From: a virus
Direction: 5' to 3' (one strand)
Length of the DNA stretch: 24,866 nt
Virus record (IMG/VR): IMGVR_UViG_3300028571_000007
Span: 1-24,866 of that record
Shown here in pieces: positions 447 through 21,117 of the stretch (its first letter is position 1; each line of letters opens with the position of its first letter). A program made the translations under genes and the position numbers. The notes beneath the pieces were generated by a model, which saw only the letters and a program-made list of their open reading frames with translations, was not told the DNA's origin and ran no database searches.

Positions 447-459
447 CCTCTAGTGTAAT
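447..459 (+). promoter_or_regulatory. CCTCTA-N7 start motif before the tail tube gene
   Basis: CCTCTA at 447-452 is followed by exactly 7 bases and the ATG at 460. It fills most of the 15-base gap after the HNH stop codon. No Shine-Dalgarno sequence is present. It is one of seven exact copies; role unknown (leaderless promoter element or translation signal). Confidence 0.6.
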
Positions 460-1266
460 ATGGCTACTTTTTTCTCAGGTTCAATTAGTGCTTTCACAGT
501 AGGTGGTTCTTCGTTCCTTTGTGAGGCTAGAAATGTTTCTTACACATCTGATGCTGAAATTGTTGATGGCAGTTGCTTAACTAACCTCTCTGAGTCGCCT
601 CAAGAGGTTAAAAGAAGCGCATCATTACAGTTCTCTAACTTAACTACGATTTCTAATGCCCTTAGAGTTTCACACCTTGATTTAACAGGTTTGACGCTAG
701 ATGGGGATTCTTTCCCTGGACAGATTAGGGAAGTTTCTATTACTCAAAACTATGCCTCTGAACCTACAGCTGGTATTGGTGCCTCATGGGTTGCCCCACA
801 AGTAGTTAAACGAGGAATTGAAATTTCTATCCAAGCTGATGCTGTAACTGATGGCTTTGCACAGGCTGCTATGGTAGATTTCCATTCTGGTACCTACGCT
901 AACAGAAATGTTACTTTCTCAATGGTTGTAAATGGCTTAACTATTACCATCCCTTGTAGAATTACTGGTGTAGAATACTCAGTTGCTGAAGCTTCCCTTC
1001 AGTCAATGACACTTAGCCTTCAGGGATTAGCACCAGATTCTGGTACTTACATTACTTCACCTACCACTTCTACAACTTTGCTGGGTAAAGCATTTAATGC
1101 CTTTACGACTCCAGTTTCAGTGGTATTTACTCCTTCGGTTGATAACTTCTCAATATCTGGTGACTTTATCTTCTCTTCTGCTGCTATCAGAGTAGCTGAT
1201 AATGAATTAGTTACAGAAGATTATACACTAAGTTCAACTGGTACAATAACAGTTACAGCCAACTAA
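460..1266 (+). CDS. Probable major tail (tube) protein
   Basis: This 268-residue protein is rich in Ser, Thr, Val and Ala and reads as mostly beta-strand, with no signal peptide or membrane segment. The assignment rests mainly on position: it precedes a tail assembly chaperone with a -1 frameshift, the place of the tube protein in siphovirus tail operons. The last 80 or so residues (from about 190, after a Ser/Thr-rich linker) look like a separate immunoglobulin-like beta domain, a common decoration on tube proteins. The ATG at 460 follows CCTCTA by 7 bases and has no Shine-Dalgarno sequence. I do not recognise a specific family motif, so another tail or head structural protein remains possible. 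Tube proteins stack as hexameric rings forming the DNA channel. Confidence 0.65.
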   Translation: MATFFSGSISAFTVGGSSFLCEARNVSYTSDAEIVDGSCLTNLSESPQEVKRSASLQFSNLTTISNALRVSHLDLTGLTLDGDSFPGQIREVSITQNYASEPTAGIGASWVAPQVVKRGIEISIQADAVTDGFAQAAMVDFHSGTYANRNVTFSMVVNGLTITIPCRITGVEYSVAEASLQSMTLSLQGLAPDSGTYITSPTTSTTLLGKAFNAFTTPVSVVFTPSVDNFSISGDFIFSSAAIRVADNELVTEDYTLSSTGTITVTAN

Positions 1267-1295
1267 AATAGAAATAACCCTTATCCAGAAATAAT

Positions 1296-1580
1296 ATGAA
1301 AGAAGAAATAAATAAAGCAATAGAAGAAGTTCTTGTAGAGGTAGAAGAAGGCGACCCAAAGGTTGGGGAAACAGTAGTAGTTACTTATCAAGTAAACCCT
1401 GATTTTGTACCAAAACAGCCCAACCCAAAAACTCCTTGCAAGTGTGGATGCCAAGAATGTGTAGACTCAACCCCCTCTGGTGGTTTTGTACCAGAAGATG
1501 GATTCCAAGGCATTCATCCTAGACTAGAAAAGACATTACGACCTAAGAATAAGAAGCTAACAGAGGCAGATACAAAATGA
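1296..1580 (+). CDS. Small Cys-rich protein of the tail operon, unknown function
   Basis: The 94-residue protein is not recognised. Its first 20 residues are a charged, Glu-rich helix. The middle holds a cysteine cluster CKCGCQEC (about residues 48-55) in a Pro-rich setting, suggesting metal binding or disulphides. The C-terminal 20 residues are basic. It lies 29 bases after the presumed tube protein, and its TGA overlaps the ATG of the next gene (ATGA), so it is translationally coupled to the tail chaperone. The bases before its ATG contain TATCCAGAAA, also seen before TerL (3583), and no Shine-Dalgarno sequence. A minor tail or tail-assembly role is inferred only from position. Confidence 0.75.
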   Translation: MKEEINKAIEEVLVEVEEGDPKVGETVVVTYQVNPDFVPKQPNPKTPCKCGCQECVDSTPSGGFVPEDGFQGIHPRLEKTLRPKNKKLTEADTK

Positions 1581-1987
1581 GTATAGTACAAAGAATTCTA
1601 TCCAAGAATAAAATAAAATCAGAGATTGAAGTAGTTATTGGAGACGAGAAACTTATTTTTCGTTACTTTAAATCTAATGGTGAACTGCTAGAAGCAACTC
1701 AAAAAGCATCTGAATTTGGAGAAATGGTTATAAAGCGGCCTTCAGGTCCATTTAAAGCCCTTGGAATTACCTACAAACAGGATGCAATTACTGCATATTT
1801 AATTCATTATTTATCAGTAGAACCAAAGATTTCTGAACTAGAAGCACTTCAGATTACACAGAATCCTGATGTTTGTGCTGAAATCTTCAACGCTATTGAG
1901 GCTAATAGAATTGAAATAGAAAATACCAAAGCAGAAGAGGTAATTGAAGAAAAAAAAGACAGCAAGAAGATTCCTACTACAGATTAA
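1577..1987 (+). CDS. Tail assembly chaperone, short (G-like) product
   Basis: The 136-residue zero-frame protein is acidic and helical towards its C-terminus. It sits directly after the presumed tube gene group, the usual place of the gpG-type chaperone. An A-AAA-AAA slippery heptamer (1951-1957) lies 10 codons before its stop, and the -1 frame continues as a good coding frame for 54 more codons. This matches the G/GT arrangement of lambda-like tail operons, where the short form is abundant and the rare fusion contacts the tape measure. The start overlaps the previous stop by 4 bases. Sequence similarity to known chaperones is not obvious, so the call depends on position and the frameshift. 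Confidence 0.75.
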   Translation: MSIVQRILSKNKIKSEIEVVIGDEKLIFRYFKSNGELLEATQKASEFGEMVIKRPSGPFKALGITYKQDAITAYLIHYLSVEPKISELEALQITQNPDVCAEIFNAIEANRIEIENTKAEEVIEEKKDSKKIPTTD

Positions 1988-2121
1988 AAGTAACTGTATG
2001 TAGAACCTGTTTCTCAAAACTACCTGATGAACTTAACGAAGAAGAAGAAAGAAGACTACCAACATTTCTAGCCAATTATATTCTAGAACTAGAAGATAAA
2101 GCTAAAAGCCTTACACTATAA
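1577..2121 (+). CDS. Tail assembly chaperone, -1 frameshift fusion (GT-like) product
   Basis: After reading GAA-AAA-AAA to base 1957, a slip of one base back makes the next codon 1957-1959 (AGA). The -1 frame is then open to TAA at 2119-2121, giving 127 + 54 = 181 residues. The added tail begins RQQEDSYYRLKV and contains a CRTC pair and an acidic stretch (LNEEEERR) before a hydrophobic-charged helix. It reads as a coherent protein, and no independent start in that frame explains it. In known phages the fusion binds the tape measure during tail assembly. Here the tape measure gene is not next door, because the terminase cassette intervenes. The slippery site is certain from sequence; its use is inferred. 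Confidence 0.75.
1951..1957 (+). promoter_or_regulatory. -1 ribosomal frameshift slippery heptamer (A-AAA-AAA)
   Basis: In the zero frame the bases read ..GAA AAA AAA GAC.., so both decoding tRNAs can re-pair one base back. It is placed before the zero-frame stop so that slippage yields the 181-residue fusion. I see no strong hairpin just downstream. Confidence 0.75.
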
Positions 2122-2141
2122 GTGATAAAGCTAAAAGCCTT
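2095..2141 (+). repeat. 18-base direct repeat at the end of the chaperone frame
   Basis: GATAAAGCTAAAAGCCTT occurs at 2095-2112, inside the -1 frame, and again at 2124-2141, just after its stop at 2121. It looks like a small local duplication that the TAA separates from the coding region. Confidence 0.85.
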
Positions 2142-2156
2142 GGAATGTGAGACACA

Positions 2157-2190
2157 AAATAGCCCTTAGGACAAATCCTAAGGGCTATTT
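2157..2190. terminator. Bidirectional terminator between tail and terminase operons
   Basis: A perfect 15-bp stem (2157-2171 with 2176-2190, core AGCCCTTAGGA/TCCTAAGGGCT) with loop CAAA separates two convergent units: the chaperone gene (+) and TerL (-). Both strands end in short T-rich runs (CTATTT, TTTTGTG). The core matches the terminator at 15201-15234. Confidence 0.85.
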
Positions 2191-2194
2191 CTAT

Positions 2195-3583: not shown

Positions 3584-3584
3584 A

Positions 3585-4110: not shown

Positions 4111-4343
4111 TATTTTAACTCCTTATTTTTAAGTAATAATTCAACCTTAGCATCAATAGCTGATAGCTTAGTTTTCATTTCTACTATATCTTCCTTAATT
4201 TTCTTATCGTCACTGGAACCAGAAGTAGCATCTCTTTCTAGATGGGAAACTTTACTTTCTAGCCTCCAACCCCAACCTATCACGATGAGAATATACATAA
4301 TAATACCCATTAAATTGCTTACAACCCAGTTTACCCAATCCAT
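4110..4343 (-). CDS. Membrane-anchored coiled-coil protein, holin or XhlA-like
   Basis: The 77-residue protein has one N-terminal membrane helix (about residues 11-26, LMGIIMYILIVIGWGW) followed by a charged coiled coil (27-73, with heptad-like VELLLK). XhlA-type lysis accessory proteins and some single-span holins share the helix-plus-coil plan, although XhlA usually has the helix at the C-terminus. It is first in the minus-strand unit that continues to a small hydrophobic protein, TerS and TerL. Its start is set by the CCTCTA-N7-ATG motif on the minus strand (4344-4356). No endolysin is found beside it, so the lysis call is tentative. Confidence 0.6.
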   Translation of the reverse strand: MDWVNWVVSNLMGIIMYILIVIGWGWRLESKVSHLERDATSGSSDDKKIKEDIVEMKTKLSAIDAKVELLLKNKELK

Positions 4344-4356
4344 AAAGTTTTAGAGG
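4344..4356 (-). promoter_or_regulatory. CCTCTA-N7 start motif of the terminase/holin unit
   Basis: On the minus strand CCTCTA (complement of 4351-4356) precedes the ATG at 4343 by exactly 7 bases. No Shine-Dalgarno sequence is present. Confidence 0.6.
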
Positions 4357-4419
4357 AGTCATTTAAGGGGTAATTGAAGGCAAATTAGTGCTAATAGTAG
4401 TAGCCAGACAATGGTGACT

Positions 4420-4488
4420 ATTGAACCTAGATAGTATAAAGGAGGATACTATTTAGATTCAAGGAGTACTATTATAGATATATTATTC
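4420..4488 (+). promoter_or_regulatory. Two-box promoter-like element, copy E1
   Basis: Box 1 ATTGAACCTA (4420-4429), 23 bases, then box 2 starting TTAGATTCAA and ending in an ACTATTATAGATATATT core (4453-4488). The same architecture with the same gap recurs at 12245-12313 (+) and 18783-18851 (-). Here it lies 118 bases before the tape measure gene, pointing towards it. The 23-base spacer differs between copies, which suggests contacts on the boxes only. The spacer contains ATAGTAT/ATACTAT (4431-4437/4446-4452) around an AAAGGAGG loop. Phage-type promoter or activator site, inferred. Confidence 0.65.
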
Positions 4489-4528
4489 CACCCCGCCCCT
4501 ACATATCTTTATATCTATACTTCCTTAT

Positions 4529-4595
4529 CTATAGAACCACTCTTGTGATTCATTCTAGTCCTTGACTAGCTAGTCCACAAGTTATTCTATCTACC
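4529..4595 (+). repeat. Leader inverted repeat, copy 1 (pairs with 18680-18746)
   Basis: Bases 4541-4595 are the exact reverse complement of 18680-18734 (55 of 55), and the match continues past one mismatch at 4540 to about 4529. It contains the 12-base palindrome GACTAGCTAGTC (4564-4575), a CTAGTC-CTT-GACTAG hairpin (4555-4569) and an outer pair CTTGTG/CACAAG (4542-4547/4576-4581). It lies downstream of element E1 and just before the tape measure gene, so it would form the structured 5' leader of that transcript. Confidence 0.9.
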
Positions 4596-4606
4596 TCTAT
4601 TAAAAT
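4594..4606 (+). promoter_or_regulatory. CCTCTA-N7 start motif of the tape measure gene
   Basis: CCTCTA at 4594-4599, seven bases, then ATG at 4607. It overlaps the end of the 55-base leader repeat by two bases. No Shine-Dalgarno sequence. Confidence 0.6.
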
Positions 4607-6652
4607 ATGACTGAGAACGTTATTGTAAACTACCAGCTTAATGATAAATTTACTGGCCCAGCAGCTAAGATACTAAATACTCAGCGAAAGTTAAATAATT
4701 CTACTTTGTCAGGTAATACTGGTAAGGAGAATAATAAATCATTAGGTGGTGCTTTAGGTTTACTTACAGCTTCTATATTTGGCCTATCGTCTTCCACCAA
4801 GAAAGCATCTAAAGCCCTTGATAAATTAGCTAAGAGTTCTTCTGGTACAGCTAGGAAATTTGGTGGCGTAATCAACAACCCAAAAGTGGGAGGCGTAATC
4901 AACAACCTAAAAGGGGGAGTTGTCAATAAAGGAGTTCAAGGATTTGGTAGCACTAAATTAACCAACCTTCTATTGGGCCTTAAGGAGGGGCAGTTTCCTG
5001 CTTCCCCCGGAAAGGATTTAGTTACTGCCCTAGAGAATCAGATAAAAGTAAATAATAAAAATATTACCAACCCTAATCTTATCAGTAATCCAGGAAAACT
5101 ATTAGTTGATAATATAGCACTAAAAAAAGCTATTGATAGAATCAATAAAATCAATAATCTAAAGACTAATCTAAAGAATTCATATAATACTTTTAGTAAA
5201 AATCTTGATAATACTAGCCCTAATTTTATTGGCCCACAACCAACTAAAGGGTTAGCCAGAATACAGCAAGGAAGAAATGCAGCCCAGAATTTCTTACCAA
5301 ACGCTTCTAAACACCTTTCAGGATTTGCATCAGCATTAGGCCCTGCAATCCAAGCTGTAGCTGTATTTGCTATTGCCCTTGGTGCTATTGCTACCCAAGT
5401 AATTCCATCATTGCTTCAAGCTGGTGCCAGACTTGAGTCATTAGAAAGAGGTGTAACCAATGCAGGTCCTGATGGTGAACGTAACCTTGGTAGGCTACGA
5501 GAACTTTCCAAGCTTCCTGGTATAAACTTTGAAGGTGCAGCTTCTGCTTCTGTGCAGCTACAGGCTGTAGGCTTTGATGCTATCCTTGCAGAGAGGGCCA
5601 TTAAAGGCTTCTCTAATGCGCTTCTACGTTCCGGTAGAAGTTCTTCTGAATTAGAAGGCATTGGAACTGCTTTATCTCAAATCGTAGGTAAAGGTACTGT
5701 CTCTGCTGAAGAAATCAACCAGATTGCTGAAAGACTTCCTTCAATTAGAAGAACTATTCAAGAAACTTTTGGTACTGTATCTGGTGAAGAAATTACCAAG
5801 AAAGTTGGAGTTAGTGGTTTCATTACTGGTATCATTGATACCTTAGAAAAGCAGACTAAATCAATTCCAGCTGGATTAGGTGACATTTTATCACAATTAA
5901 ATGACTCATTTAACCAGGTTACTGGAAAAATAGGAATTGGATTAGGTAAAGTACTAATACCAATCTTAGATAATGTCTCAACTGCAGTTGATAAACTGTC
6001 TTCTTCTGGTTTCTTTGAAAGACTTGGTGCCCTATCAATTACCAATTTCCTTCCTGCACCTTCTGAGATTAATGGTATTATTGCTAATATTATCGCTGGC
6101 GTAGAACAGATTCCTTCTGCCCTTTCAACTATCAGTTCAATTGCTGCAGAAATAAGTTCTATATTTAAGTCAATTGCTAAGACTATCCTTGCAATAGAAA
6201 ATTCACCAATAGGTAAAGCAGTTAATTTCGTTTCTGATAAAGTTGGTGGCTTAATTCCTGGTTACTCACAAACCAAAGCTGGTGTAAAATCAGTTCTAGA
6301 AAATATTGCTGGTTCTAATTCACCTGATTTTGAATCAAGAAGAAAATCTATCTTAGAAACACTAAATAAAGCTGCTGCACCTTTAGAAGATTTAGGTAAA
6401 GGTAAACTAGATGTCCTTCCTAATGAGATTACTAAGGTAGCTAATAATACCAGCGAGCTTGTAGAGTTACAGAAGAAAGCTATTGATTTAAATAGACAGA
6501 TTCTTGGTGGTGGGCAACTAGCCTCAGAAGCAGTTTCACCAATGAACCTCAGTTCTAGGTACCCTTCAACTAGAACTATGGGTGACCAAATCACCAGAGT
6601 AATTTACACTGGTATGGCAGCTTACAATACAGGCTACAGAGGTAGAAAATAA
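4607..6652 (+). CDS. Tail tape measure protein
   Basis: The 681-residue protein sets tail length and is released during DNA injection. Residues about 273-390 match the conserved tape measure N-terminal domain: ARLESLERGV, a repeated GI/LGTALSQIVGKGTVSAEEINQ stretch and AERLPSIRR. A hydrophobic segment (about 247-268, AIQAVAVFAIALGAIATQV) is the usual membrane-active part. The N-terminal 240 residues are Lys/Asn-rich and low in complexity, with a nine-residue tandem repeat near residue 87. Length is at the short end for siphoviruses, suggesting a short tail. It starts a transcription unit with element E1, a structured leader and CCTCTA-N7-ATG, and its stop overlaps the next start (TAATG). Confidence 0.92.
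   Translation: MTENVIVNYQLNDKFTGPAAKILNTQRKLNNSTLSGNTGKENNKSLGGALGLLTASIFGLSSSTKKASKALDKLAKSSSGTARKFGGVINNPKVGGVINNLKGGVVNKGVQGFGSTKLTNLLLGLKEGQFPASPGKDLVTALENQIKVNNKNITNPNLISNPGKLLVDNIALKKAIDRINKINNLKTNLKNSYNTFSKNLDNTSPNFIGPQPTKGLARIQQGRNAAQNFLPNASKHLSGFASALGPAIQAVAVFAIALGAIATQVIPSLLQAGARLESLERGVTNAGPDGERNLGRLRELSKLPGINFEGAASASVQLQAVGFDAILAERAIKGFSNALLRSGRSSSELEGIGTALSQIVGKGTVSAEEINQIAERLPSIRRTIQETFGTVSGEEITKKVGVSGFITGIIDTLEKQTKSIPAGLGDILSQLNDSFNQVTGKIGIGLGKVLIPILDNVSTAVDKLSSSGFFERLGALSITNFLPAPSEINGIIANIIAGVEQIPSALSTISSIAAEISSIFKSIAKTILAIENSPIGKAVNFVSDKVGGLIPGYSQTKAGVKSVLENIAGSNSPDFESRRKSILETLNKAAAPLEDLGKGKLDVLPNEITKVANNTSELVELQKKAIDLNRQILGGGQLASEAVSPMNLSSRYPSTRTMGDQITRVIYTGMAAYNTGYRGRK
4865..4918 (+). 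repeat. 27-base tandem repeat in the tape measure gene
   Basis: Two adjacent 27-base units (4865-4891, 4892-4918) differ at two bases and encode GVINNPKVG-GVINNLKGG; a decayed third unit (VVNKG) follows. In-frame repeats like this change tape length and can shift tail length. Confidence 0.85.
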
Positions 6653-11800: not shown

Positions 11801-12218
11801 ATTTATTAGTGACACACCAGATATAAATTTAGCTAGGGTATCTTTTGGTACTAACTCTATTTTATTAATACTATATCAGGTTTCTGGAACGACTTATCTT
11901 GGTTACAGTACCAATCTAGGAAAAACAATTAACATGGCTACAACTATTTCATCTTCTGCCACCTATGGAGATTTCTGTGTATCAGGAAATAATATAATTT
12001 GTGTATATTACATTGACAGTGGAGTAGTTAAAGGCCAGTTATTTGACATTAATTATAACCAAATTTCACCAGAATTTGCTACTAATGTCACCTGTGATGA
12101 TGCACAGCTTACAGTAGTTGAGAAATCTTTTGGTGCTTCATCTCGGTTGATAATGTCTGTCTTTCAATCTGGCAGCTTGGTGACACTAACTTCTACAGGA
12201 TTTAAGAATTTTAGCTAA
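8886..12218 (+). CDS. Large tail protein, probable host-contact or baseplate component
   Basis: With 1110 residues this is the largest protein in the genome. It is rich in Ser, Thr, Gly, Tyr and Trp and reads as successive beta domains. A Pro-rich hinge (PATPPPGPPVPSP, about residues 302-314) separates an N-terminal part (tail-attached, about 300 residues) from an 800-residue distal part. The last 200 residues have repeated short beta motifs with SxxG and YSTN-type turns, as in propeller or fibre ends. A CFSACVLC cysteine cluster lies near residue 210. I recognise no enzyme motif, although an embedded lytic domain cannot be excluded by eye. It is the last gene of the tape measure operon; a 152-base gap with element E2 follows. 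Confidence 0.6.
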   Translation: MLAGLSFKASDIRIGLAYDGTDSHTGDGTGTFQWDAQLASYSIFNTVSLSDGIQMSIESGNISGPLYIYSFAIPELSISDSVSAASYETSVQSYVILKDVKLLEQAASPWRLIIGDVEWYIDGSLVGSYGGGTLDGTGLGPGYVPLLGIPPRVTSALNPGATGYPLLDVTSWQSSTTATITASYEFKIESTDSWQNLPISIITPTTPSCFSACVLCSSVNGIVSGTNTAGIDLNLSRSTGLETIEAGGKYFTQGNVSSTEGSFWIIPNLDKGVVKLGDSYAALIQRYGLPFTEYLGTRSCGPATPPPGPPVPSPYIETQTVSGEVHPEYTAFLSTVLASGDVIEDPLAEITYLPMIVSNNAETTQWVDIGNSGEPINPALWPDPLDGFFVETVTYSFPSKTQNRTRYTNPNPDMPAYLDWSDTEATPTELNNVVTYVQTIVHPHWSYWYHVQDWDVDGSPTSYDDYWGLLCDQQLYNAALPPEDNLLSRTSLVSAPLRFGGNQSFIETFVAGTKTSWWGTPGTNLRVDRPTVPTSVIATGPDRWILSGCTATFAPTTVTATSSGAATIKLKYDLADWNYSPRMLTSLTKQFILDWSGVNINSVSVNLIGIDNTSYELATIPGTYDFPVGLLNMEYAGSWAQDFGATVITDTGVDTLPDGDSIAANSDNTRVVASQYLSARGAKYLEFVVTVANTASSVILDLPVLVMPTPDWTVKYEGSQFGTALDPDGPAIRFGNVNYWNYLFDILQYPPPVLAPTSKPTVIDWLAFRESVLLGNDPATNIDSLISDYFDSGTEYTLRKHLAYETVSWLMAYGSGLQGIMVNTYCPPPLALFPGKARNSELTEITGWNQKVYSFTQHKRNHITPYNADLQVLLKAPESNWLTADSAPSGWSIASHTHQLDNDETDYLLSLGTRTWGKMRPWHGQFWVQGVTFLASGYLDYTISANNMHVRVNGSASGMNVSYSDNTLGFNEFISDTPDINLARVSFGTNSILLILYQVSGTTYLGYSTNLGKTINMATTISSSATYGDFCVSGNNIICVYYIDSGVVKGQLFDINYNQISPEFATNVTCDDAQLTVVEKSFGASSRLIMSVFQSGSLVTLTSTGFKNFS

Positions 12219-12244
12219 GAAATTGTAACTTGACGAAAATGAAA

Positions 12245-12313
12245 ATTGAACCTAAATTGCAACTTCGTACCTATGATTTAGATTCAAGGAGTACTATTAT
12301 AGATATATTATTC
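12245..12313 (+). promoter_or_regulatory. Two-box promoter-like element, copy E2
   Basis: Box 1 ATTGAACCTA (12245-12254), a 23-base spacer unrelated to that of E1, then box 2 (12278-12313) identical over 36 bases to 4453-4488. It lies in the gap between two tail genes, 57 bases before the ATG at 12371, so it probably drives the fibre genes separately. It would fall inside a longer frame opening at a TTG (12230), which argues against that start. Confidence 0.65.
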
Positions 12314-12355
12314 TATCATGCTAAAATCTATATCTACATATCCACCACTTCTACT

Positions 12356-12370
12356 CCTCTAAGTATTCAT
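12356..12370 (+). promoter_or_regulatory. CCTCTA start motif, 9-base spacing
   Basis: CCTCTA at 12356-12361 precedes the ATG at 12371 by 9 bases, two more than in the exact copies. It supports 12371 as the true start. Confidence 0.45.
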
Positions 12371-13051
12371 ATGTTCACTACTAACTATACACCAGTCTCA
12401 GCTACATATAGTTTCACTTCTACAGGTGAAGTTATTGCAGTTGACTTAGGTACAGCTGTTCGTGATGCTGTAATTATTAGGAATCTAACTGCTAACACCT
12501 TGATGTATGTTTCTAGCACTGCTTCTGGTGCGATAGAACTTAATTCTATCTTCGAACCTGTATTAGGTGGTGAAGAGAAAACTTACCCTAACAGAACTGG
12601 AATAGTTTATATCAAGCCATATGCTTATATTGGTGAATCAATAGCCGTTGCTTCTGGACTAATAAGTGCAGTTAGAGAATCTTCTGCTGAGTTACGAGGA
12701 ATCCTAAATACCATTTCAGCACTCAATAGTTGTGACGACACCTGTGAATCTTATGATGCTGAGATTTCATTGGTTCGTAATTCTGACTACACATATCTTG
12801 ACACACCAGCACTCAGCCTAAACATAGGTTCTTATGATGTTGAAGGCTATAGCAGTGTCATATTCACTAATTCAGCTAATGTAGAATTTACCTGGATTTC
12901 TGGTGTAATCCTAAATGCTGGTGCAGCTGGGCAGCAGTCATTAGGTATGTCAATAGAAGAATTACCTGCTGGTAATTATACAGTCTACCCTTATGCTGTA
13001 ATTGATGGTTCACAAGTATCACTTGGTAAAATCAAGGTGGTAGGAAAATAA
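12371..13051 (+). CDS. Tail protein upstream of the fibre, unknown function
   Basis: The 226-residue protein begins MFTTNYTPVSATYSFTS and is beta-rich with a short helical middle (SAVRESSAELRGILNTISAL). Its N-terminal 80 residues (EVIAVDLGTAVRDAVIIRNLTANTLMYV and following) look like a small beta-sandwich. The frame stays open upstream to a TTG at 12230, but that stretch includes regulatory element E2 and encodes an unconvincing hydrophobic peptide, so I place the start at 12371 after CCTCTA. Its stop overlaps the fibre gene start (TAATG), suggesting a partner role: fibre adaptor, assembly factor or capping protein. Confidence 0.7.
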   Translation: MFTTNYTPVSATYSFTSTGEVIAVDLGTAVRDAVIIRNLTANTLMYVSSTASGAIELNSIFEPVLGGEEKTYPNRTGIVYIKPYAYIGESIAVASGLISAVRESSAELRGILNTISALNSCDDTCESYDAEISLVRNSDYTYLDTPALSLNIGSYDVEGYSSVIFTNSANVEFTWISGVILNAGAAGQQSLGMSIEELPAGNYTVYPYAVIDGSQVSLGKIKVVGK

Positions 13052-15195
13052 TGTTACAAAATACTATTTTTAGAATCGGTGGTTCTGACTCACCAACTTT
13101 GGCTGAAGTTGAAAGCCTTATTGACGCCTCTGCTGATTTGCTGCAGGCTGAAATTGATGCCCTTGATGTAGCACTTAATGCTGAAATAGATGCACTAGAT
13201 GCTTCCCTGACTTCTGATATCAATGCTTTAGATATATCTCTTTCAGCTGAAATTGATGCTTTAGATACATCATTGAATGCTTCTATAGATGAAGTCTCAG
13301 ATGATGTATATTTACTTACTCGTGGTGGATTATCCAGAACCTTATCAGAAAACTTAATTAATTTTAATTTATTAACTGGATACCAATCTAATTATACTTT
13401 CCAACCAACAGCTTTCACTGCTATAGGTTTTTACCGAGATGCTAATGGTTATTGGAGAAGTGATGCTTCATTTAATACTTTAGCTGGTGACTATTCTGGG
13501 TTTACTGTAACTTTTGTTAATGCTACTGCTACTGGTGACGGTGGTGATGGTTTAACAACTGCTACAGCTAAGAAAAACATAGGTTCACTAATGACAGATG
13601 CTACTAACAGGCTTCTGATTGTAAAAGATTGTGGATATAATGTCACAGAAGCTATTAGAAATGGTGACTGGGAAACATTACGACTAGGACTTAAGTCTGG
13701 TTTTGCCCAACTTAACTCACAGTCAGCTGGTGGAAATGATATTGGTGCCCATAAAATTATAGTACCTTGGGTAGCTGGAAATACTGTACTTCTAACTGGT
13801 TTCTATTCTACATCTGATATGACTTGGAGTACAGTTTCTTCTGGTATCTATAAGTCAACTTCTGTAACTTCTACTCCAGGTGGTATGCTTGACTTTGGAC
13901 AAAGAGATGTATTTAACCAACCTCTTCGTGCTTTGGCTGTAACTTCTACTACTTATACAGTAACTGGAGTTGCTTCTAATGGTTCTGGTGGTTCTAGAAT
14001 CACAACTACAGCTGCACATGGCTTAGCCACTGGTAACCAAGTTGTAATTTATAGCACTGGTGGTGCTACTTATATCAACGGTGAATGGAGTGTTACAGTA
14101 ATTTCTTCTACTACCTTTGATATCAACGTAGCTTTTGGTGCCTCAATTACAACTCCAGGTACGTTAGTAAACCTTTCTGCCTTGGTTGCACCTCAAGTTT
14201 CATTGGTTAACTCAGTGCTTTACTATGCTTCGACTGTAGCCCCTTCAGGTTCTAATACATTCGTCTCAGTTAACAGTACTCGTTACAGAAATGATAACCC
14301 TGATAGAAGATTAGTTTGTAGAAATACTGCTTTCCTTGGCGGTTCTGTTACTTTCTCTTCTGTATGCGGCCAGTTGATTACATCTGCTGCTAATGATGGT
14401 GGTAATTATAGAATTACTACTTCTGCTGCACATGGTTTCTCAGTAGGTGATACAGTTCTTCTAGAATCAATTGCTGGTGCTGCTTCTGGACTAAATGGTA
14501 GCCATACAATCGCTACTGTACCAACAACTACTACTTTTACGGTTCCTGTAGCCTACACAACTACTTCAACTAGTAATACTGGAATAGCAAATAGGCCAAC
14601 TAAACCAATTCTGAATGGATTCTTTGATTGTGTCTTTGGCTTTGGATTCTCTTCTACTTCAAACGTAGCACAGTTTGAAGGGCATGGACTTACGGTGCTG
14701 AAAGGAACAGTAGCTATAAGTTCTTCTACTGATATAGTTGACTACCGCTGTAGACGATATGCAATTGAAGATAACTGCTGGATGCAAGGTGCTGGTGCCC
14801 AAACTAGCGGTTCTAACCTTAACCAGAATAGCACAGGCCACTCTGGTTCTAGAGTTATTTCTGTTGGCTGTGAATATAACGGTGCTTATGGCCCATTGAT
14901 TCAAGATGTACGTGAATATGGTGCAGATAGCTACAGAGTTGTTGCTGGCTGTTGGCTATATAATTCCTTAGCTTCTTCTACCTCACGGGTTGGACTGCTT
15001 ATTGGAACTAACTCTTCTACTACTGATAATTCTATCTTCTGGTCATTAGATAATCACTTCAATGACACTCTTGGTGGAAATGTAATGGCAACTCGTTACA
15101 CAGTTTGTACAGGAAGTAGCTATTACACCAATGAAATTACAACCCTGAAGAATGTACTAGGAACACCTACAGCAGACTCGATTGCAATTATCTAA
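13051..15195 (+). CDS. Tail fibre / receptor-binding protein
   Basis: The 714-residue protein is the last gene of the tail cluster. Residues 33-87 are five 11-residue repeats (AEIDALDVALN-type), a right-handed trimeric coiled coil typical of fibre shafts. A region from about 160 (TGDGGDGLTTATAKKNIGS) to the end reads as a beta-helix with Asn/Thr/Ser-rich turns, like pectate lyase-fold tailspikes. Two inserts of a small beta domain with the TAAHG(L/F)xxG signature lie at about residues 305-370 and 443-505; such modules recur in phage fibres. No catalytic motif can be assigned, so depolymerase activity is open. It starts at a TAATG overlap, and a strong terminator follows its stop. Confidence 0.85.
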   Translation: MLQNTIFRIGGSDSPTLAEVESLIDASADLLQAEIDALDVALNAEIDALDASLTSDINALDISLSAEIDALDTSLNASIDEVSDDVYLLTRGGLSRTLSENLINFNLLTGYQSNYTFQPTAFTAIGFYRDANGYWRSDASFNTLAGDYSGFTVTFVNATATGDGGDGLTTATAKKNIGSLMTDATNRLLIVKDCGYNVTEAIRNGDWETLRLGLKSGFAQLNSQSAGGNDIGAHKIIVPWVAGNTVLLTGFYSTSDMTWSTVSSGIYKSTSVTSTPGGMLDFGQRDVFNQPLRALAVTSTTYTVTGVASNGSGGSRITTTAAHGLATGNQVVIYSTGGATYINGEWSVTVISSTTFDINVAFGASITTPGTLVNLSALVAPQVSLVNSVLYYASTVAPSGSNTFVSVNSTRYRNDNPDRRLVCRNTAFLGGSVTFSSVCGQLITSAANDGGNYRITTSAAHGFSVGDTVLLESIAGAASGLNGSHTIATVPTTTTFTVPVAYTTTSTSNTGIANRPTKPILNGFFDCVFGFGFSSTSNVAQFEGHGLTVLKGTVAISSSTDIVDYRCRRYAIEDNCWMQGAGAQTSGSNLNQNSTGHSGSRVISVGCEYNGAYGPLIQDVREYGADSYRVVAGCWLYNSLASSTSRVGLLIGTNSSTTDNSIFWSLDNHFNDTLGGNVMATRYTVCTGSSYYTNEITTLKNVLGTPTADSIAII
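13147..13311 (+). repeat. 33-base coding repeats (11-residue coiled coil) in the fibre gene
   Basis: Five units encode AEIDALDVALN, AEIDALDASLT, SDINALDISLS, AEIDALDTSLN and ASIDEVSDDVY (residues 33-87). The DNA has diverged while the protein pattern is kept, which indicates selection on the coil. Confidence 0.9.
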
Positions 15196-15200
15196 AAGAA

Positions 15201-15234
15201 ATAAAGCCCTTAGGAGAAATTCTAAGGGCTTTAT
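15201..15234 (+). terminator. Terminator after the tail fibre operon
   Basis: A 15-bp stem (15201-15215 with 15220-15234, one G-T pair) closes on a GAAA loop. The core AGCCCTTAGGA/TTCTAAGGGCT resembles the terminator at 2157-2190. The T-run after it is weak (TTTATTGT). It begins 5 bases after the fibre stop. Confidence 0.85.
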
Positions 15235-15269
15235 TGTATATAAATTGTACCTTTTTGTTACAAAATAGC

Positions 15270-15286
15270 CCTCTATTGTAGTTACT
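15270..15286 (+). promoter_or_regulatory. CCTCTA start motif, 11-base spacing
   Basis: CCTCTA at 15270-15275 precedes the ATG at 15287 by 11 bases. The last bases (GTTACT-ATG) match those before the portal ATG at 21118, as if four bases were inserted. TTGTTACAAAAT just upstream could be part of a promoter. Confidence 0.4.
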
Positions 15287-15850
15287 ATGCCAACTACAAA
15301 CCCTGATATGCAAAGCCATGAAGAACTTCAGCAACATGTTACTTCTTATTTGCAAAACAAAGGATGGAAAGTTGTAAATACAGGTTACCATGATTATCTT
15401 AACGAAACTGATACAAAATATATTGCTAAAAATTACAGCCCTAGTTCCTTACTCTACAGAACCCAACCTGACTTGTTTTGCTGTAATGCTAATGAAGCAT
15501 TTTATGTAGACTTGAAAACTAATAATGGCCCCCATGAGAACCTAGCAGTAGAATTATTGCCATTGCTAGCATCAGCAATGAAAGATAAACTATTTAATAG
15601 TACTACTTATTATATATTTCTGGATAAAGGAATAAATCGTAGAACTGTTAAAGAAATTAGAATAGTCACCGCTACAGAGTTATTGGATTCTGTGGCTATT
15701 TTATTTTTAGATGATAGAATGGAGAAAATAATAACTTCCTATCCAGAAATGAATAATATAAAGAAGAAACCTTACATCAAAGGAGATAGCTTTGCTGTTA
15801 TTCCTTTCGATAAAGTTAATTGCTTTAAACTACTTGAGGAAGTCCTCTAA
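15287..15850 (+). CDS. PD-(D/E)XK nuclease family protein
   Basis: The 187-residue protein has an N-terminal helix (HEELQQHVTSYLQNKGW) and a core with PD at 61-62 and VDLKT at 74-78. This gives D62...D75-x-K77, the metal-binding set of PD-(D/E)XK nucleases, with the second acid as Asp. Vsr, Holliday-junction resolvases and restriction-like repair nucleases have this plan. Possible roles are resolving branched DNA before packaging, recombination, or degrading host DNA. It opens the neck operon and its stop codon lies inside the CCTCTA motif of the next gene. The substrate cannot be told from sequence. Confidence 0.7.
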   Translation: MPTTNPDMQSHEELQQHVTSYLQNKGWKVVNTGYHDYLNETDTKYIAKNYSPSSLLYRTQPDLFCCNANEAFYVDLKTNNGPHENLAVELLPLLASAMKDKLFNSTTYYIFLDKGINRRTVKEIRIVTATELLDSVAILFLDDRMEKIITSYPEMNNIKKKPYIKGDSFAVIPFDKVNCFKLLEEVL

Positions 15851-15856
15851 AATATT
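15844..15856 (+). promoter_or_regulatory. CCTCTA-N7 start motif of the head-tail connector gene
   Basis: CCTCTA at 15844-15849 includes the end of the nuclease gene and its TAA (15848-15850), then 7 bases lead to ATG at 15857. This copy lies within a coding end, yet the spacing is kept. A GAGGAAGT just upstream is a possible additional Shine-Dalgarno sequence. Confidence 0.55.
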
Positions 15857-16417
15857 ATGAATGTCTCAGAATTACTTGATTTCCTTGGCTGTAGTGATAT
15901 CAAAGACTCAGTTGCTTCACTTTATCTTCAAGCTGCTGAAGCTGCCTTTGCTAAGGACTCTGGGTGGCGTCCTTTTGTAGCAGAAAATATGCTTCAGACA
16001 TTACTGGTTAAAAGCTATTTAATACCTTTGCCAGTGCCTGTTTATGACATTTACAGTGTTACTGCTTTTGTCCAATTTGGTTGTAGTGGGCAAATACTTT
16101 CTGCAGGTGAGTATGAATTACTAAATAAACAGGCTAATGGTGGTTGGTTGACAATGAATACTTCATTTTGGGCTTGCAGTAACTATGTAATGGAAGTTTC
16201 TGGTAATTTTGGTTACTGTTTAGAGTATCCTTCTGATGTAAAATTAGCTATTTTACAGAAAGCTGCTAGTAATTACTACATGGCTGGAATGAGTCAAGTA
16301 AAACGAGAAAGGGCTGGAACTGTAGAAATTGAATACTTTGATAATTCTTCTTTAGCTAAAAGTTACCTTGAAGGATATAATGCCACAGTTAAGACTTACA
16401 GGCGGGTATCATTATGA
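15857..16417 (+). CDS. Head-tail connector (gp6/gp15-like)
   Basis: The 186-residue protein opens with helices (MNVSELLDFLGCSDIKDSVASLYLQAAEAAF) and has a central beta part. It closes with a helix PSDVKLAILQKAASNYYMAG and a tyrosine-rich end (YLEGYNATVKTYRRV). This is the pattern of the HK97 gp6 / SPP1 gp15 adaptor family, rings that sit below the portal after packaging. Three small genes follow with overlapping starts and stops in the usual neck order, which supports the call. The next ATG overlaps its TGA (ATGA). Confidence 0.75.
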   Translation: MNVSELLDFLGCSDIKDSVASLYLQAAEAAFAKDSGWRPFVAENMLQTLLVKSYLIPLPVPVYDIYSVTAFVQFGCSGQILSAGEYELLNKQANGGWLTMNTSFWACSNYVMEVSGNFGYCLEYPSDVKLAILQKAASNYYMAGMSQVKRERAGTVEIEYFDNSSLAKSYLEGYNATVKTYRRVSL

Positions 16418-17511: not shown

Positions 17512-17514
17512 AGG

Positions 17515-18027
17515 TTAATCTAAGTATTTAATCAATTCAGCTAAGGTTTCCTTGTTATCTTTTGCATACCCTATAACCAAATTGCAGTTTCTGCATAGTA
17601 TTCCCCTAACGTTTCCTGTAAGGTGATTATGGTCTATATGAATTTCTTTTTTTGGTAAATTATCGAAATCAACTTTACATCCTTTACATTTATTTTCCTG
17701 GATAGTTATTAAATCATTAAAATCAGAAACGGTAAACTGAATGCCATTCAGTTTGTAACCAGCTTTTCTGTAATTAATATTTAGTACTTTTTCTGGGTTT
17801 TTCTTTCTCCATTTAGTAAGAAGATTTTTTATAGATTCTGGGTTGTTCTTTCTCCATTTTTTACCAGCTTCTCTCATCTTTTCTGAGTTGGTTTTATAAT
17901 ATTCTTTTCTATATTTTCTTTTATACTCCGTATTTGCTTCAACTTTACAGTTATTACAGTATTTTTGGTTGGTTTTAGGAATAAACTCTGCTTTACAAGT
18001 TTTACAGGCTTTAGTTATTTGTTTCAT
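17515..18027 (-). CDS. Endonuclease VII-like HNH endonuclease, second copy
   Basis: The 170-residue protein parallels the gene across the join residue by residue. An N-terminal zinc ribbon has C8/C11 and C24/C27. A basic linker follows with two KWRK-NPE repeats (about 57-80), then the endonuclease VII domain with C114/C117, D132-H133 and C145/C148-N149. All catalytic residues are present, so it should be active. Family members cut branched DNA or act as free-standing homing nucleases. It is convergent with the neck operon, 3 bases away, and lies inside the span that ends at the terminator 18086-18125, as if inserted. The start follows CCTCTA by 7 bases. Confidence 0.9.
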   Translation of the reverse strand: MKQITKACKTCKAEFIPKTNQKYCNNCKVEANTEYKRKYRKEYYKTNSEKMREAGKKWRKNNPESIKNLLTKWRKKNPEKVLNINYRKAGYKLNGIQFTVSDFNDLITIQENKCKGCKVDFDNLPKKEIHIDHNHLTGNVRGILCRNCNLVIGYAKDNKETLAELIKYLD

Positions 18028-18040
18028 TCATCACTAGAGG
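18028..18040 (-). promoter_or_regulatory. CCTCTA-N7 start motif of the second HNH gene
   Basis: On the minus strand CCTCTA (complement of 18035-18040) precedes the ATG at 18027 by exactly 7 bases. The upstream bases are AT-rich and contain TATCCAGAAA, but no Shine-Dalgarno sequence. Confidence 0.6.
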
Positions 18041-18085
18041 AAAAATAAAATTACTTAATTTCTGGATAGGAAGATAAATATAATA

Positions 18086-18125
18086 GAAAAACCCCTTTAG
18101 GATTTCTCCTTCAGGGGTTATTTTT
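18086..18125. terminator. Bidirectional terminator between the orphan zinc ribbon and HNH genes
   Basis: AACCCCT (18090-18096) pairs with AGGGGTT (18113-18119); AGGA/TCCT forms the upper stem (18099-18102/18107-18110). Both strands have T5 runs. It ends the zinc ribbon transcript (-) and could also end neck-operon transcripts (+) that read through the antisense HNH gene. The AACCCCT core is shared with the terminator beside the other HNH gene (24626-24661). Confidence 0.85.
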
Positions 18126-18155
18126 GCGCCAACAGTTTTGCTTCACTTACTTCAA

Positions 18156-18344: not shown

Positions 18345-18357
18345 AGTTTTGTATCCT

Positions 18358-18405
18358 TTTACCGGGGTGGGATTGGCTTATGAGTCCATGCTAGGCCCCG
18401 GTAAA
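18358..18405 (-). promoter_or_regulatory. Hairpin ending at the ribosome binding site of the zinc ribbon gene
   Basis: TTTACCGGGG (18358-18367) pairs with CCCCGGTAAA (18396-18405), a perfect GC-rich 10-bp stem around a 28-base loop. In the minus-strand RNA its 3' arm runs directly into AAAAGGA, the ribosome site of the gene at 18344, so folding could limit initiation. Confidence 0.65.
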
Positions 18406-18631
18406 TATTTTCTAGCCTAAAGATAATGTGGTTATAGTTACTAAATTAATTTCTTACTAAATTTCTCTATTCTAGGGCTTAAAGTACTCTAATGCGTGTT
18501 TGGAGTGGTTTAAGGTTGTAACCCTTCTAGAAACGAATTGTAGAGGCAAGAAGAGGTATATGTGGAGAGAATCCTGTCTCAAGGACAGAGAGTATCACAG
18601 AGTCAAGAGATAGGTATCTTCAGGAATAGCT

Positions 18632-18666
18632 TTACCTGGTTACAGGTTTGATACCAAACCAGGTAA
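18632..18666. promoter_or_regulatory. Nested hairpin in the leader/control region
   Basis: TTACCTGGTT (18632-18641) pairs with AACCAGGTAA (18657-18666). Within it GGTTTG (18645-18650) can instead pair with CAAACC (18655-18660). The two stems compete for 18657-18660, a switch-like layout also seen at 20672-20713. Confidence 0.6.
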
Positions 18667-18679
18667 GAATAACAGAAGT

Positions 18680-18746
18680 GGTAGATAGAATAACTTGTGG
18701 ACTAGCTAGTCAAGGACTAGAATGAATCACAAGAATGGTTCTATAG
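18680..18746 (-). repeat. Leader inverted repeat, copy 2 (pairs with 4529-4595)
   Basis: Bases 18680-18734 are the exact reverse complement of 4541-4595, with one mismatch at 18735 and matching bases beyond. Distance from the promoter-like box 2 is 49 bases here and 53 in copy 1, so promoter and leader seem to have been duplicated together and placed in inverse orientation. Confidence 0.9.
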
Positions 18747-18782
18747 AATATCAATAGAATATATGAAGAGAAGGACTTAGTT

Positions 18783-18851
18783 ATAGAATATATCTATAAT
18801 AGTCCTAATTGAATCTAATAACTCTTATGAACGCTACTACTTAGCTTCAAT
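18783..18851 (-). promoter_or_regulatory. Two-box promoter-like element, copy E3 (minus strand)
   Basis: Read on the minus strand: box 1 ATTGAAGCTA (18851-18842), 23 bases, then box 2 (18818-18783) with TTAGATTCAA and an intact ACTATTATAGATATATT core. It points at the structured leader and zinc ribbon gene. It is the most diverged copy, and the diverged positions show which bases are kept. Confidence 0.65.
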
Positions 18852-18961
18852 TTCCAGTTTCAATAGTTACAATTATTTCTTCTAATTTCTTATGGAATAT
18901 CCTCCTCTATATATTCAAATCTGCAACTATTAACTACAATATCATTAAGCTTTCGAATATC

Positions 18962-20320
18962 ATGACAAAAGAACTTTACACCTCAGCCCTAAATACTCTT
19001 CTTACCATTTCTAACTCTAAGAACGTAAAAGAAGAACTTTCTTTTATGCTAACTTTACTTATTCCACCCCACAAAGTCAAAGGTGAATTTGTTTCCTTAG
19101 AAGAAGAGTCTATTCCTTGTACATTTTTCACTAAGGAATTTATCAAACAGACTATAGGTGTAAATGTAAAGTCACCCCTTTCAGTTGTGAAGTCTTTATC
19201 TAGTACTTACGGCTTTGGTTTTGATGTGTTAAAATATAAAGAATCTAAAGCTACCGTAATCAGAATTACCAGCCTTCCAGAACCATTATTAAACTTAAAA
19301 GAAGAAATCTACGCTACCATGCCAAAAAATATTAAAATGAAAAATCTCGTAACCTATTCAGGGAAAGCAACCACAGGTGCTAAAATTTTCGAGTCTCTCG
19401 CCACTGGCGAAGATAAAATCTTGAAGAATCTAAATACCTATAAGAGACATTATCTCACTTTAAATGATGATGCAATTTGCGCAACTTATAATAAAGTTCA
19501 AGAAGATATTACCAATGGCGTTATCACCAAGGAAAATGCAGATATGGTACTTAATACTCTCCTACAGATGAAATCTATGCCACAGCCTAAATATAAAGCA
19601 GTAGAAGGTTCGCCTAGATACTATGCTTTTAACCAATCACCAGCTGCATTACCAAGAGAATATAGAAAACTTTACGCAAAAGAGATGAAGTCGGCCTCAT
19701 TTGACCTCAAATGTGCCCAGTATTTTATTGCTGTAAAAATTCTTAACCTTGATACAGCCCTTGCAGACAGAGTTGCTGCTGGAGAATCCCTCTGGACCAT
19801 TCTTGGTGATAAAATGGACAATAAACTCCAGAAAACCCACCTTAAAACTGCACTTTATGCACTTCTTTTTGGTGCTTCTGGTAAAGAATCTGGTGGTAGA
19901 GATAAAGTTATTATCAAAGAATGGCAGTCAGAAGGTGTTACTAACTCAGAAGAGTTGTTTAAAGAATTCCTATCTATTCCAGAAATAAATGAATTAGTAG
20001 AGAAGAGAGATGCAAGAATCAAAGAACTATCTAAGGCTTACAAGGTAGAAACAGTATTTAAAACTACTCATTATGGACTCAGTGGTGCTTCATTGCTTGC
20101 TTATGAGATTCAGTGTTATGAAGTTGCTTTAATGAAACCAATTCTTGAGTATATCTTCGGTTCCTCCAAATACGAAGTTGCCCTTTTCCTTCACGATGGA
20201 GTTTACATTCACTGCGCCTACAAAGATATGTATGATGGCCTTTACACTTCGCTTCAGAGAATCCTAGCTAAGACTGCTAAGAAACTCAACGTCACTGCAA
20301 TTCTTGAAAGAGAATTCTAA
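18962..20320 (+). CDS. Compact family A-type DNA polymerase (divergent)
   Basis: The 452-residue protein carries the three palm motifs in order. Motif A is SASFDLKCAQYF (244-255, D248). Motif B is KTALYALLFGASG (295-307), matching the family A pattern K-x3-F/Y-x3-Y/F-G. An inter-motif helix is YEIQCYEVALMKPI (381-394), and motif C is FLHDGVYI (409-416, H411-D412). SPRYYAF...LPREYRK before motif A is also seen in this group. The first 200 residues are not recognised, and no 3'-5' exonuclease motifs are visible. It is far smaller than Pol I or T7 gp5 and is the only replication enzyme found, so it probably copies the phage DNA with host helpers. A single-subunit RNA polymerase is a weaker alternative. 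There is no ribosome binding site at the ATG, and the frame is open upstream to about 18917, where CCTCTA-N7 ends. Confidence 0.75.
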   Translation: MTKELYTSALNTLLTISNSKNVKEELSFMLTLLIPPHKVKGEFVSLEEESIPCTFFTKEFIKQTIGVNVKSPLSVVKSLSSTYGFGFDVLKYKESKATVIRITSLPEPLLNLKEEIYATMPKNIKMKNLVTYSGKATTGAKIFESLATGEDKILKNLNTYKRHYLTLNDDAICATYNKVQEDITNGVITKENADMVLNTLLQMKSMPQPKYKAVEGSPRYYAFNQSPAALPREYRKLYAKEMKSASFDLKCAQYFIAVKILNLDTALADRVAAGESLWTILGDKMDNKLQKTHLKTALYALLFGASGKESGGRDKVIIKEWQSEGVTNSEELFKEFLSIPEINELVEKRDARIKELSKAYKVETVFKTTHYGLSGASLLAYEIQCYEVALMKPILEYIFGSSKYEVALFLHDGVYIHCAYKDMYDGLYTSLQRILAKTAKKLNVTAILEREF

Positions 20321-20342
20321 TAACCCACAAAGGATAAAAATT

Positions 20343-20561
20343 ATGAAAACAAAACCAAGCACCCGAATCTATCTAGTTTCCCCAGACTTAGACACCTTAG
20401 CATTAGAATTAATTGATGAAATTAGTTTCACTAAAGTCCATCCACATGACCTAGAAGCTTACAAAAACAATATGTCACCTTACCAAATCAAACTACGAAA
20501 CGAGGCGATAAAGGCTGAACTCTTTAGATTAGTTCAAGAACTAGGAAAAACCTTGAAATGA
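20343..20561 (+). CDS. Small protein after the polymerase, unknown function
   Basis: The 72-residue protein begins MKTKPSTRIYLVSPDLDTLALELIDEI and ends in a charged helix (YQIKLRNEAIKAELFRLVQEL). The frame is open to an ATG at 20304, but AAAGGA sits about 9 bases before the ATG at 20343, and the upstream extension overlaps the polymerase end, so 20343 is preferred. One of the few genes with a standard ribosome site. Being next to the polymerase and the repeat region, it could be a replication accessory or regulator; nothing in the sequence shows which. Confidence 0.7.
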   Translation: MKTKPSTRIYLVSPDLDTLALELIDEISFTKVHPHDLEAYKNNMSPYQIKLRNEAIKAELFRLVQELGKTLK

Positions 20562-20639
20562 AAATACTCCCTTAGCCAGAAAAGGGGAAAGAATGTTAAA
20601 AAAAGTCAAAAATTTTTTCATTTTATTCTTATCCTAACT

Positions 20640-20652
20640 CCTCTACTTATCT
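20640..20652 (+). promoter_or_regulatory. CCTCTA-N7 start motif before a seven-codon ORF
   Basis: CCTCTA at 20640-20645, seven bases, then ATG at 20653. Exact spacing with no gene behind it apart from a seven-codon frame. Confidence 0.5.
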
Positions 20653-20676
20653 ATGATTCATAAATTTAATTCTTAA
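20653..20676 (+). CDS. Seven-codon leader ORF (MIHKFNS)
   Basis: ATG ATT CAT AAA TTT AAT TCT TAA follows the exact CCTCTA-N7 motif. Its stop lies in the first bases of the hairpin at 20672-20713, a terminator follows at 20738, and the portal gene is 440 bases on. The layout resembles a leader peptide with an attenuator. It could also be the stump of a lost gene, or chance. Confidence 0.35.
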   Translation: MIHKFNS

Positions 20677-20713
20677 CTTTGTTTTTGTCCCAAAAACAGA
20701 AAACAAAGTTAAG
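20672..20713 (+). promoter_or_regulatory. Long hairpin with competing inner stem
   Basis: CTTAACTTTGTTTT (20672-20685) pairs perfectly with AAAACAAAGTTAAG (20700-20713). An inner stem TGTTTTTG/CAAAAACA (20680-20687/20691-20698, loop TCC) competes with the outer one. It begins at the stop of the seven-codon ORF. Candidate attenuator, cruciform or origin structure. Confidence 0.65.
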
Positions 20714-20737
20714 CTAATAGCTTATGAACATTCTATA

Positions 20738-20770
20738 AGATACACTTAATGACTAAGTGTATCTTTTTTT
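20738..20770 (+). terminator. Rho-independent terminator of the polymerase unit
   Basis: An 11-bp perfect stem AGATACACTTA/TAAGTGTATCT (20738-20748/20754-20764), a five-base loop and a run of T (20764-20770). A textbook intrinsic terminator for + strand transcripts from the polymerase and 72-residue genes. Confidence 0.92.
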
Positions 20771-20809
20771 CTGGGGGAAAAGCAGGCTACGCCTTGAAGT
20801 TGCCCCAGA
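20770..20809 (+). other. GC-rich structured element after the terminator
   Basis: TCTGGGG (20770-20776) pairs with CCCCAGA (20803-20809). Inside, AGGC-TAC-GCCT (20784-20794) forms a second small stem. It is a GC-rich island in AT-rich DNA, directly next to the T-run. No known RNA family was recognised; an origin or processing structure is possible. Confidence 0.5.
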
Positions 20810-20883
20810 TAAGGTAAACTATTTTTTAATTTTCTGAATAAAGAACATTACTAATTAAACTAATTCCTAACCCAATAAGATAA

Positions 20884-20963
20884 GTCTAAAGACTGTCTAA
20901 AGACTGTCTAAAGAAATAATTATTTTAATTTTGAACCTAAAGATGGACTAAAGTGGACTAATT
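20884..20963. repeat. Iteron-like repeats
   Basis: Unit GTCTAAAGACT starts at 20884, 20895 and 20906 (third copy shortened to 9 bases). Each contains the inverted repeat AGTCT-AA-AGACT or its near form. Two further direct repeats TGGACTA lie at 20944-20950 and 20954-20960. The surrounding 150 bases are very AT-rich. Iterons beside an AT-rich stretch near the polymerase gene fit a replication origin; an operator is the alternative. Confidence 0.6.
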
Positions 20964-21052
20964 TAGGGGTAATTTAATTAGTTAATTTAGAATTCTGTCC
21001 CCCATTCAGAAATAAGTTATATAGTAAAATATAATCACTTTTGAAATCTCCC

Positions 21053-21090
21053 CTATTTCCATGTCGTAAGACATGGAAATAGTTATTTTT
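21053..21090 (+). terminator. Terminator-like hairpin 28 bases before the portal gene
   Basis: A perfect 13-bp stem (21053-21065 with 21070-21082) closed by a GTAA tetraloop (GNRA type) and followed by TTATTTTT. It would stop upstream transcription, so the head operon must start between 21083 and 21118, or the hairpin acts as an attenuator. Confidence 0.85.
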
Positions 21091-21104
21091 ATACTAAATC
21101 ATTT

Positions 21105-21117
21105 CCTCTAGGTTACT
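21105..21117 (+). promoter_or_regulatory. CCTCTA-N7 start motif of the portal/head operon
   Basis: CCTCTA at 21105-21110, GGTTACT, then ATG at 21118. Only 22 bases separate it from the hairpin and T-run, which leaves almost no room for a normal leader. Confidence 0.6.

Follow-up and report, generated by a model that had tools for sequence, protein, structure and literature searches.

Does a six-base signal at the place of a Shine-Dalgarno sequence mark where a ribosome binds or where a transcript begins? The question is raised by CCTCTA, which had been noticed in an IMG/VR virus record exactly seven bases before the ATG of transcription-unit leaders. This sequence-only reading proposed either leaderless promoters for a phage-modified RNA polymerase or an unusual ribosome-recruiting signal. 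The window analysed here is the whole virus record of 24,866 bases. The 127 bases at its start (1-127) recur unchanged at its end (24740-24866), so that the record most simply, and probably, represents a complete genome of 24,739 bp that is circularly permuted and in which one HNH gene spans the end-to-end junction. The window encodes portal, protease, HK97-type capsid, connector, tape measure and terminase as well as two endonuclease VII/HNH genes and one polymerase-like gene, and 2,143 bases (8.7% of the genome) are non-coding.

A single relative was found in IMG/VR. It comes from the same metagenome series, consists of two contigs (L008 and L009/L010) and shares 81-90% protein identity with the window in the proteins compared. 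Searches with the terminase, the portal, the polymerase and two tail proteins returned this same relative only, and no relatives were found among the genome contigs searched.

Placement and conservation of the motif

All seven reported sites with seven bases between CCTCTA and ATG (N7) were confirmed, and the three looser copies were found as described. In the list, positions without a contig name are those of the window.

447-462, plus strand: CCTCTA-N7-ATG before gene 460-1266 (tail tube according to the sequence-only reading); relative, L010 301, N7
4341-4356, minus strand: CCTCTA-N7-ATG before the 77-aa gene 4343-4110, which is weakly holin/spanin-like and heads the terminase unit; relative, L010 4175 minus, N7
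4594-4609, plus strand: CCTCTA-N7-ATG before the tape measure gene 4607-6652; relative, L010 4365, N7
12356-12373, plus strand: CCTCTA-N9-ATG before gene 12371-13051; ortholog, L010 12806, N8
15270-15289, plus strand: CCTCTA-N11-ATG before gene 15287-15850; ortholog, L010 15768, N7
15844-15859, plus strand: CCTCTA-N7-ATG before the head-tail connector gene 15857-16417; relative, L010 16354, N7
18025-18040, minus strand: CCTCTA-N7-ATG before the HNH/endonuclease VII gene 18027-17515
18904-18909, plus strand: CCTCTA 52 bases 5' of the polymerase ATG (18962), predicted +1 at A18917; this copy may be a chance occurrence
20640-20655, plus strand: CCTCTA-N7-ATG heading a short non-coding unit with a 7-codon ORF only
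21105-21120, plus strand: CCTCTA-N7-ATG before the portal gene 21118-22281; relative, L008 1147, N8

CCTCTA is unusual in its placement and not in its overall abundance. The window holds 15 copies where 15.9 are expected by chance, yet seven of them stand in the N7-ATG register, compared with 0.21 expected from dinucleotide shuffles (largest shuffle count 2), and ten lie within the non-coding 8.7% of the genome (binomial p = 5e-8). When CCTCTA before start codons was counted and tested for enrichment as had been proposed, with spacings of 3 to 12 scanned, CCTCTA-N7 ranked first among the 4096 hexamers in the window (p = 6e-10), and it and the overlapping TCCTCT-N8 far exceeded all other hexamer and spacing pairs. 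Spacing is exactly N7 at most sites near an ATG and N8, N9 or N11 at some genes.

Similar results were obtained for the relative, for which the hypothesis had been fixed beforehand: CCTCTA-N7 was again the top hexamer of 4096 (p = 1.3e-9). Moreover, the search for conservation showed that the motif is kept at all seven motif genes of the window that have an ortholog in the relative, with N7 in both phages for four genes and small spacing shifts for three. At these orthologous starts 42 of 42 motif bases are identical, compared with 45% of the 20 bases upstream and 59% of the spacer. The connector motif overlaps the stop codon of the preceding gene in the window, and in the relative it is located beyond this codon, again with N7. 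The motif is absent in the named distant relatives Synechococcus phage Sc-Yong805-2 and Manatee Spring phage. Chance, or common ancestry without function, has next to no probability left and is refuted for practical purposes by the shuffle counts, the hexamer ranking and the conservation amid diverged flanks: the total count of CCTCTA is not elevated and the motif is known from two related phages only, but p is ~1e-9 at one spacing in both genomes and the motif is retained where the flanking bases have diverged. The start-site motif is thus real and conserved.

Motif genes and Shine-Dalgarno sites

The assignment of the motif to transcription-unit leaders holds for most first genes and has exceptions. 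By our own, somewhat soft classification of first genes, the motif lies at most 11 bases from the start in 6 of 9 unit-opening genes compared with 2 of 17 others (Fisher p = 0.008), and the former count rises to 7 of 9 if the polymerase copy at 52 bases is included. Genes 460 and 15857 carry the motif and are not clear first genes, as they trail a same-strand neighbour by 15 and 6 bases, respectively, with an HNH gene preceding gene 460. Two motif genes come after another gene without an intervening terminator. Conversely, gene 18344 on the minus strand and the HNH gene at 24662 are likely first genes without the motif.

That the motif takes the place of a Shine-Dalgarno sequence was borne out. 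With a site called at a duplex energy of -4.5 or below, 2 of 16 motif genes had a Shine-Dalgarno sequence compared with 21 of 30 other genes, and the median duplex energies were 0 and -5.8. In both positive motif genes the score derives from GGA/GAGG bases 5' of the motif. Internal genes, as described before, lack CCTCTA and mostly use Shine-Dalgarno sites or overlaps instead. CCTCTA itself does not qualify as a Shine-Dalgarno site, the duplex energy with the 16S anti-Shine-Dalgarno sequence being 0 for most motif genes. Since the other genes of the phage use ordinary Shine-Dalgarno sites, the ribosome that reads them has a normal anti-Shine-Dalgarno sequence, and therefore no odd ribosome has forced the motif on the phage as a substitute. 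Besides, ATCCAGAAA recurs at positions 1283, 3600 minus and 18067 minus of the window, at L010 1133 and at L008 1036; two start codons lacking both CCTCTA and a Shine-Dalgarno site have it 2-11 bases before them, and it also lies 5' of some other units.

Promoter or ribosome signal

We consider it rather probable, from the sequence patterns in both phages, that CCTCTA is a short phage-specific promoter giving leaderless or near-leaderless mRNAs. The motif would form the promoter core, and RNA synthesis would start ~8 bases 3' of it, at or a few bases from the A of the ATG. First genes would then be made as leaderless or nearly leaderless mRNAs that need no ribosome-binding site, whereas the downstream genes of each unit would be translated via ordinary Shine-Dalgarno sites or coupling. 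As in leaderless promoters, a signal at a fixed place near -10 relative to the start codon is found chiefly at first genes, and Shine-Dalgarno sites are lacking at motif genes and present at internal ones. Several further elements bear on this reading:

20653-20770, plus strand: predicted small RNA of 118 nt, with a hairpin from A20653 followed by an intrinsic terminator at 20737-20765
21053-21082, plus strand: intrinsic terminator just 5' of the portal motif
18085-18109, minus strand: terminator-like hairpin just 5' of the HNH motif at 18040
15200-15235, scored on the minus strand: terminator-like hairpin that separates gene 13051-15195 from the motif at 15270
4382-4598, plus strand, 12203-12351, plus strand, and 18888-18677, minus strand: copies of a repeated leader-like element of ~200 nt that ends at or near the motifs of the tape measure gene and gene 12371

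The hairpins before the portal, HNH and 15287 genes stand ~20-50 bases 5' of the motif and thus leave little room for a leader. A promoter is favoured because a transcript begun farther upstream would meet these hairpins. It is also favoured by the site at 20640, which precedes no real gene, so that a ribosome signal would have no evident purpose there. Instead, the same promoter may produce one short structured RNA (20653-20770). The hairpin at 20653 has a fold z of -7.8, and the 7-codon ORF and its ATG are buried within it. With 53 upstream bases co-folded, the pairing probability is 0.02 at 20652 compared with 0.73, 0.84 and 0.92 at 20653-20655; in the predicted fold the RNA structure begins exactly at the predicted +1, A20653. 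Only one such structured RNA was seen, and the relative has no counterpart. Moreover, a pyrimidine precedes the A in 12 of 13 N7 sites (p = 0.003). A pyrimidine at -1 is typical of bacterial transcription start sites, and this base, together with a layout of motif, six bases, T and A(+1) like that of the AR9 late promoter discussed below, further argues for a promoter.

The main rival places CCTCTA in an mRNA leader as a ribosome-recruiting element at the Shine-Dalgarno place, which would act by RNA pairing or through a phage or host protein. We regard it as disfavoured and give it a minor share of the probability. The positions -13 to -8 are also the usual place of a Shine-Dalgarno sequence, the spacing ranges from 7 to 11 as it may for translation signals, and some motifs (447, 15844) lie between closely spaced genes. 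Against this, the phage's ordinary Shine-Dalgarno sites imply a normal anti-Shine-Dalgarno sequence, no tested bacterial genome is enriched, the ATG of the non-coding RNA headed by the motif sits in a hairpin, and the sites near an ATG are mostly exactly N7. Such an exact spacing is tighter than usual for Shine-Dalgarno sites. Slightly less probable again is that CCUCUA serves as a sequence-specific signal unrelated to Shine-Dalgarno pairing, mainly at the first gene of a transcript, its reader being a phage protein or a host ribosome modified by the phage.

The leader-like DNA repeated 5' of two motif genes also speaks for a ribosome signal: if the ~200-nt element is transcribed, CCTCTA lies inside the leader at the tape measure gene and gene 12371. 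The inverted third copy (18888-18677) lacks the motif. In the relative the element occurs at L010 4191-4363 and 12088-12258; copies are alike within each phage and diverged between the phages, with a conserved core ATTGAACCTAAATT...TTTAGATTCAA. It is possibly a leader, an origin or a regulatory region. An HNH gene (L010 12272-12820) is inserted in the relative between this element and the ortholog of gene 12371. One CCTCTA precedes this HNH gene and a second overlaps its stop codon, which leaves each of the two genes with a motif.

A host sigma-70 promoter just 5' of the motif, which would then stand at the 5' end of a 15-20-nt leader, appears unlikely to us. Candidate elements are TATACT before the portal gene and TGCTACAAT before the 15781 gene of the relative, TATACTAAATCAT is conserved before both portal genes, and an extended -10-like sequence lies 5' of L010 15768. 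However, the 18 sites have no -10-like element at a constant distance, and sigma-70-like matches are no commoner than in shuffled sequence. Still more doubtful is an RNA processing site at which an endonuclease would trim longer leaders to leaderless mRNAs by a MazF-like logic. It would reconcile the upstream leader-like repeats with an RNA end at the ATG, but the hairpins immediately 5' of several sites leave little leader to trim and no such ribonuclease was recognised in the phage.

For the phage-specific promoter that we prefer, the motif reader may be a phage factor acting on the host RNA polymerase, or a phage polymerase. Of the two explanations offered by the sequence-only reading the leaderless promoter is the better supported and passed the conservation test in the relative, whereas no factor was recognised behind its "phage-modified RNA polymerase". 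CCTCTA is unlike TATAAT and does not fit the TANNNT/TATAAT -10 element of sigma-70 or Deinococcus-type leaderless promoters, and no conserved -35 or other upstream element was found near the motif (18 sites). The recognised genes of the apparently complete genome include neither a sigma factor nor a T7-type RNA polymerase, and family searches covering part of the proteins revealed no phage multisubunit RNA polymerase. The polymerase-like protein (452 aa, gene 18962-20320) has no Pfam or PHROGs assignment. Members of its family are encoded by a plasmid of Deinococcus peraridilitoris and by a genome of the cyanobacterial phylum, in the latter adjoining an antirepressor-like gene, and share the motifs D-L-x-x-A-Q, K-x7-(F/Y)-G and H-D-G. 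T7-type RNA polymerases were not matched in profile comparison, and the motif-B match to family A DNA polymerases was weak and non-significant. The AlphaFold model, with a pLDDT of 42, is uninformative.

A host-wide signal was not found in the genomes covered. In ~720 bacterial genomes (43 spread over many phyla, 194 of cyanobacteria and their relatives, 145 of the Lentisphaera phylum, 118 Bacteroidota, 120 Pseudomonadota and 100 Actinomycetota), among which the host may not be represented, CCTCTA-N7-ATG showed no clear enrichment over a reversed-pattern control. Its density was at most ~12 per Mb compared with 283 per Mb in the phage. Therefore, a general host signal is disfavoured and the motif looks, and probably is, phage-specific. 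Homologs of the endonuclease VII indicate no single host.

Several other non-coding elements were observed. The region before ORF 18344 on the minus strand likely contains a structured RNA leader (window 18364-18424 minus; L010 18452-18501 minus). Its outer stem shows a compensatory change between the phages, TTTACCGGGG/CCCCGGTAAA compared with GGTAACAG/CTGTTACC, and a conserved CTAGCATGGnCTCATAAGCCnATCCCA inside the stem resembles the anticodon arm of methionine tRNA. Rfam gave no match at the gathering score, this leader included. A hairpin TTACCTGGTT...AACCAGGTAA in the long non-coding stretch before the polymerase is kept in both phages (window 18634-18672; L010 18774-18809), and GGCTACGCCTTGAAGT is common to the non-coding DNA of both at different places (window 20770-20806; L010 18714-18740).

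Known systems and meaning

The late promoter of AR9, a phiKZ-like jumbo phage, was mapped by dRNA-seq as AACA-6N-T(A/G)+1 and attributed to the phage non-virion RNA polymerase (PMC5312081). It resembles our motif in being a short phage-specific element that six free bases and a T separate from a purine start. However, the element is AACA and not CCTCTA, AR9 leaders are 26-491 nt long and not leaderless (PMC5312081), and the multisubunit RNA polymerase used there was not recognised in our phage. The late promoter of phiKZ, TATG with the G as start site (PMC5312081), is also very short and by its sequence could overlap a start codon, but it differs in sequence and polymerase and starts at the G of TATG, not at an A. 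In leaderless promoters of Deinococcus-Thermus and actinobacteria the -10 element adjoins the ORF (PMC12340547, PMC3160421). There, too, a signal ~10 bases before the ATG replaces the Shine-Dalgarno site, although it is a TA-like -10 used genome-wide in the host, whereas CCTCTA was not found as such a signal in the ~720 bacterial genomes. A Shine-Dalgarno site is likewise six bases long and ~seven bases before the ATG, but CCTCTA is not complementary to the anti-Shine-Dalgarno sequence and other genes of the phage use true sites. No description of CCTCTA as a phage start signal was found in titles and abstracts of the literature on CCTCTA, phage and promoter.

If the promoter reading is true, a 24.7-kb phage uses a six-base promoter on both strands and makes most of its first genes leaderless. 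The phage would provide a compact natural system for leaderless translation and for a phage-specific promoter with no evident reader among the genes recognised so far. It would also be a warning that promoters can occupy the Shine-Dalgarno position.
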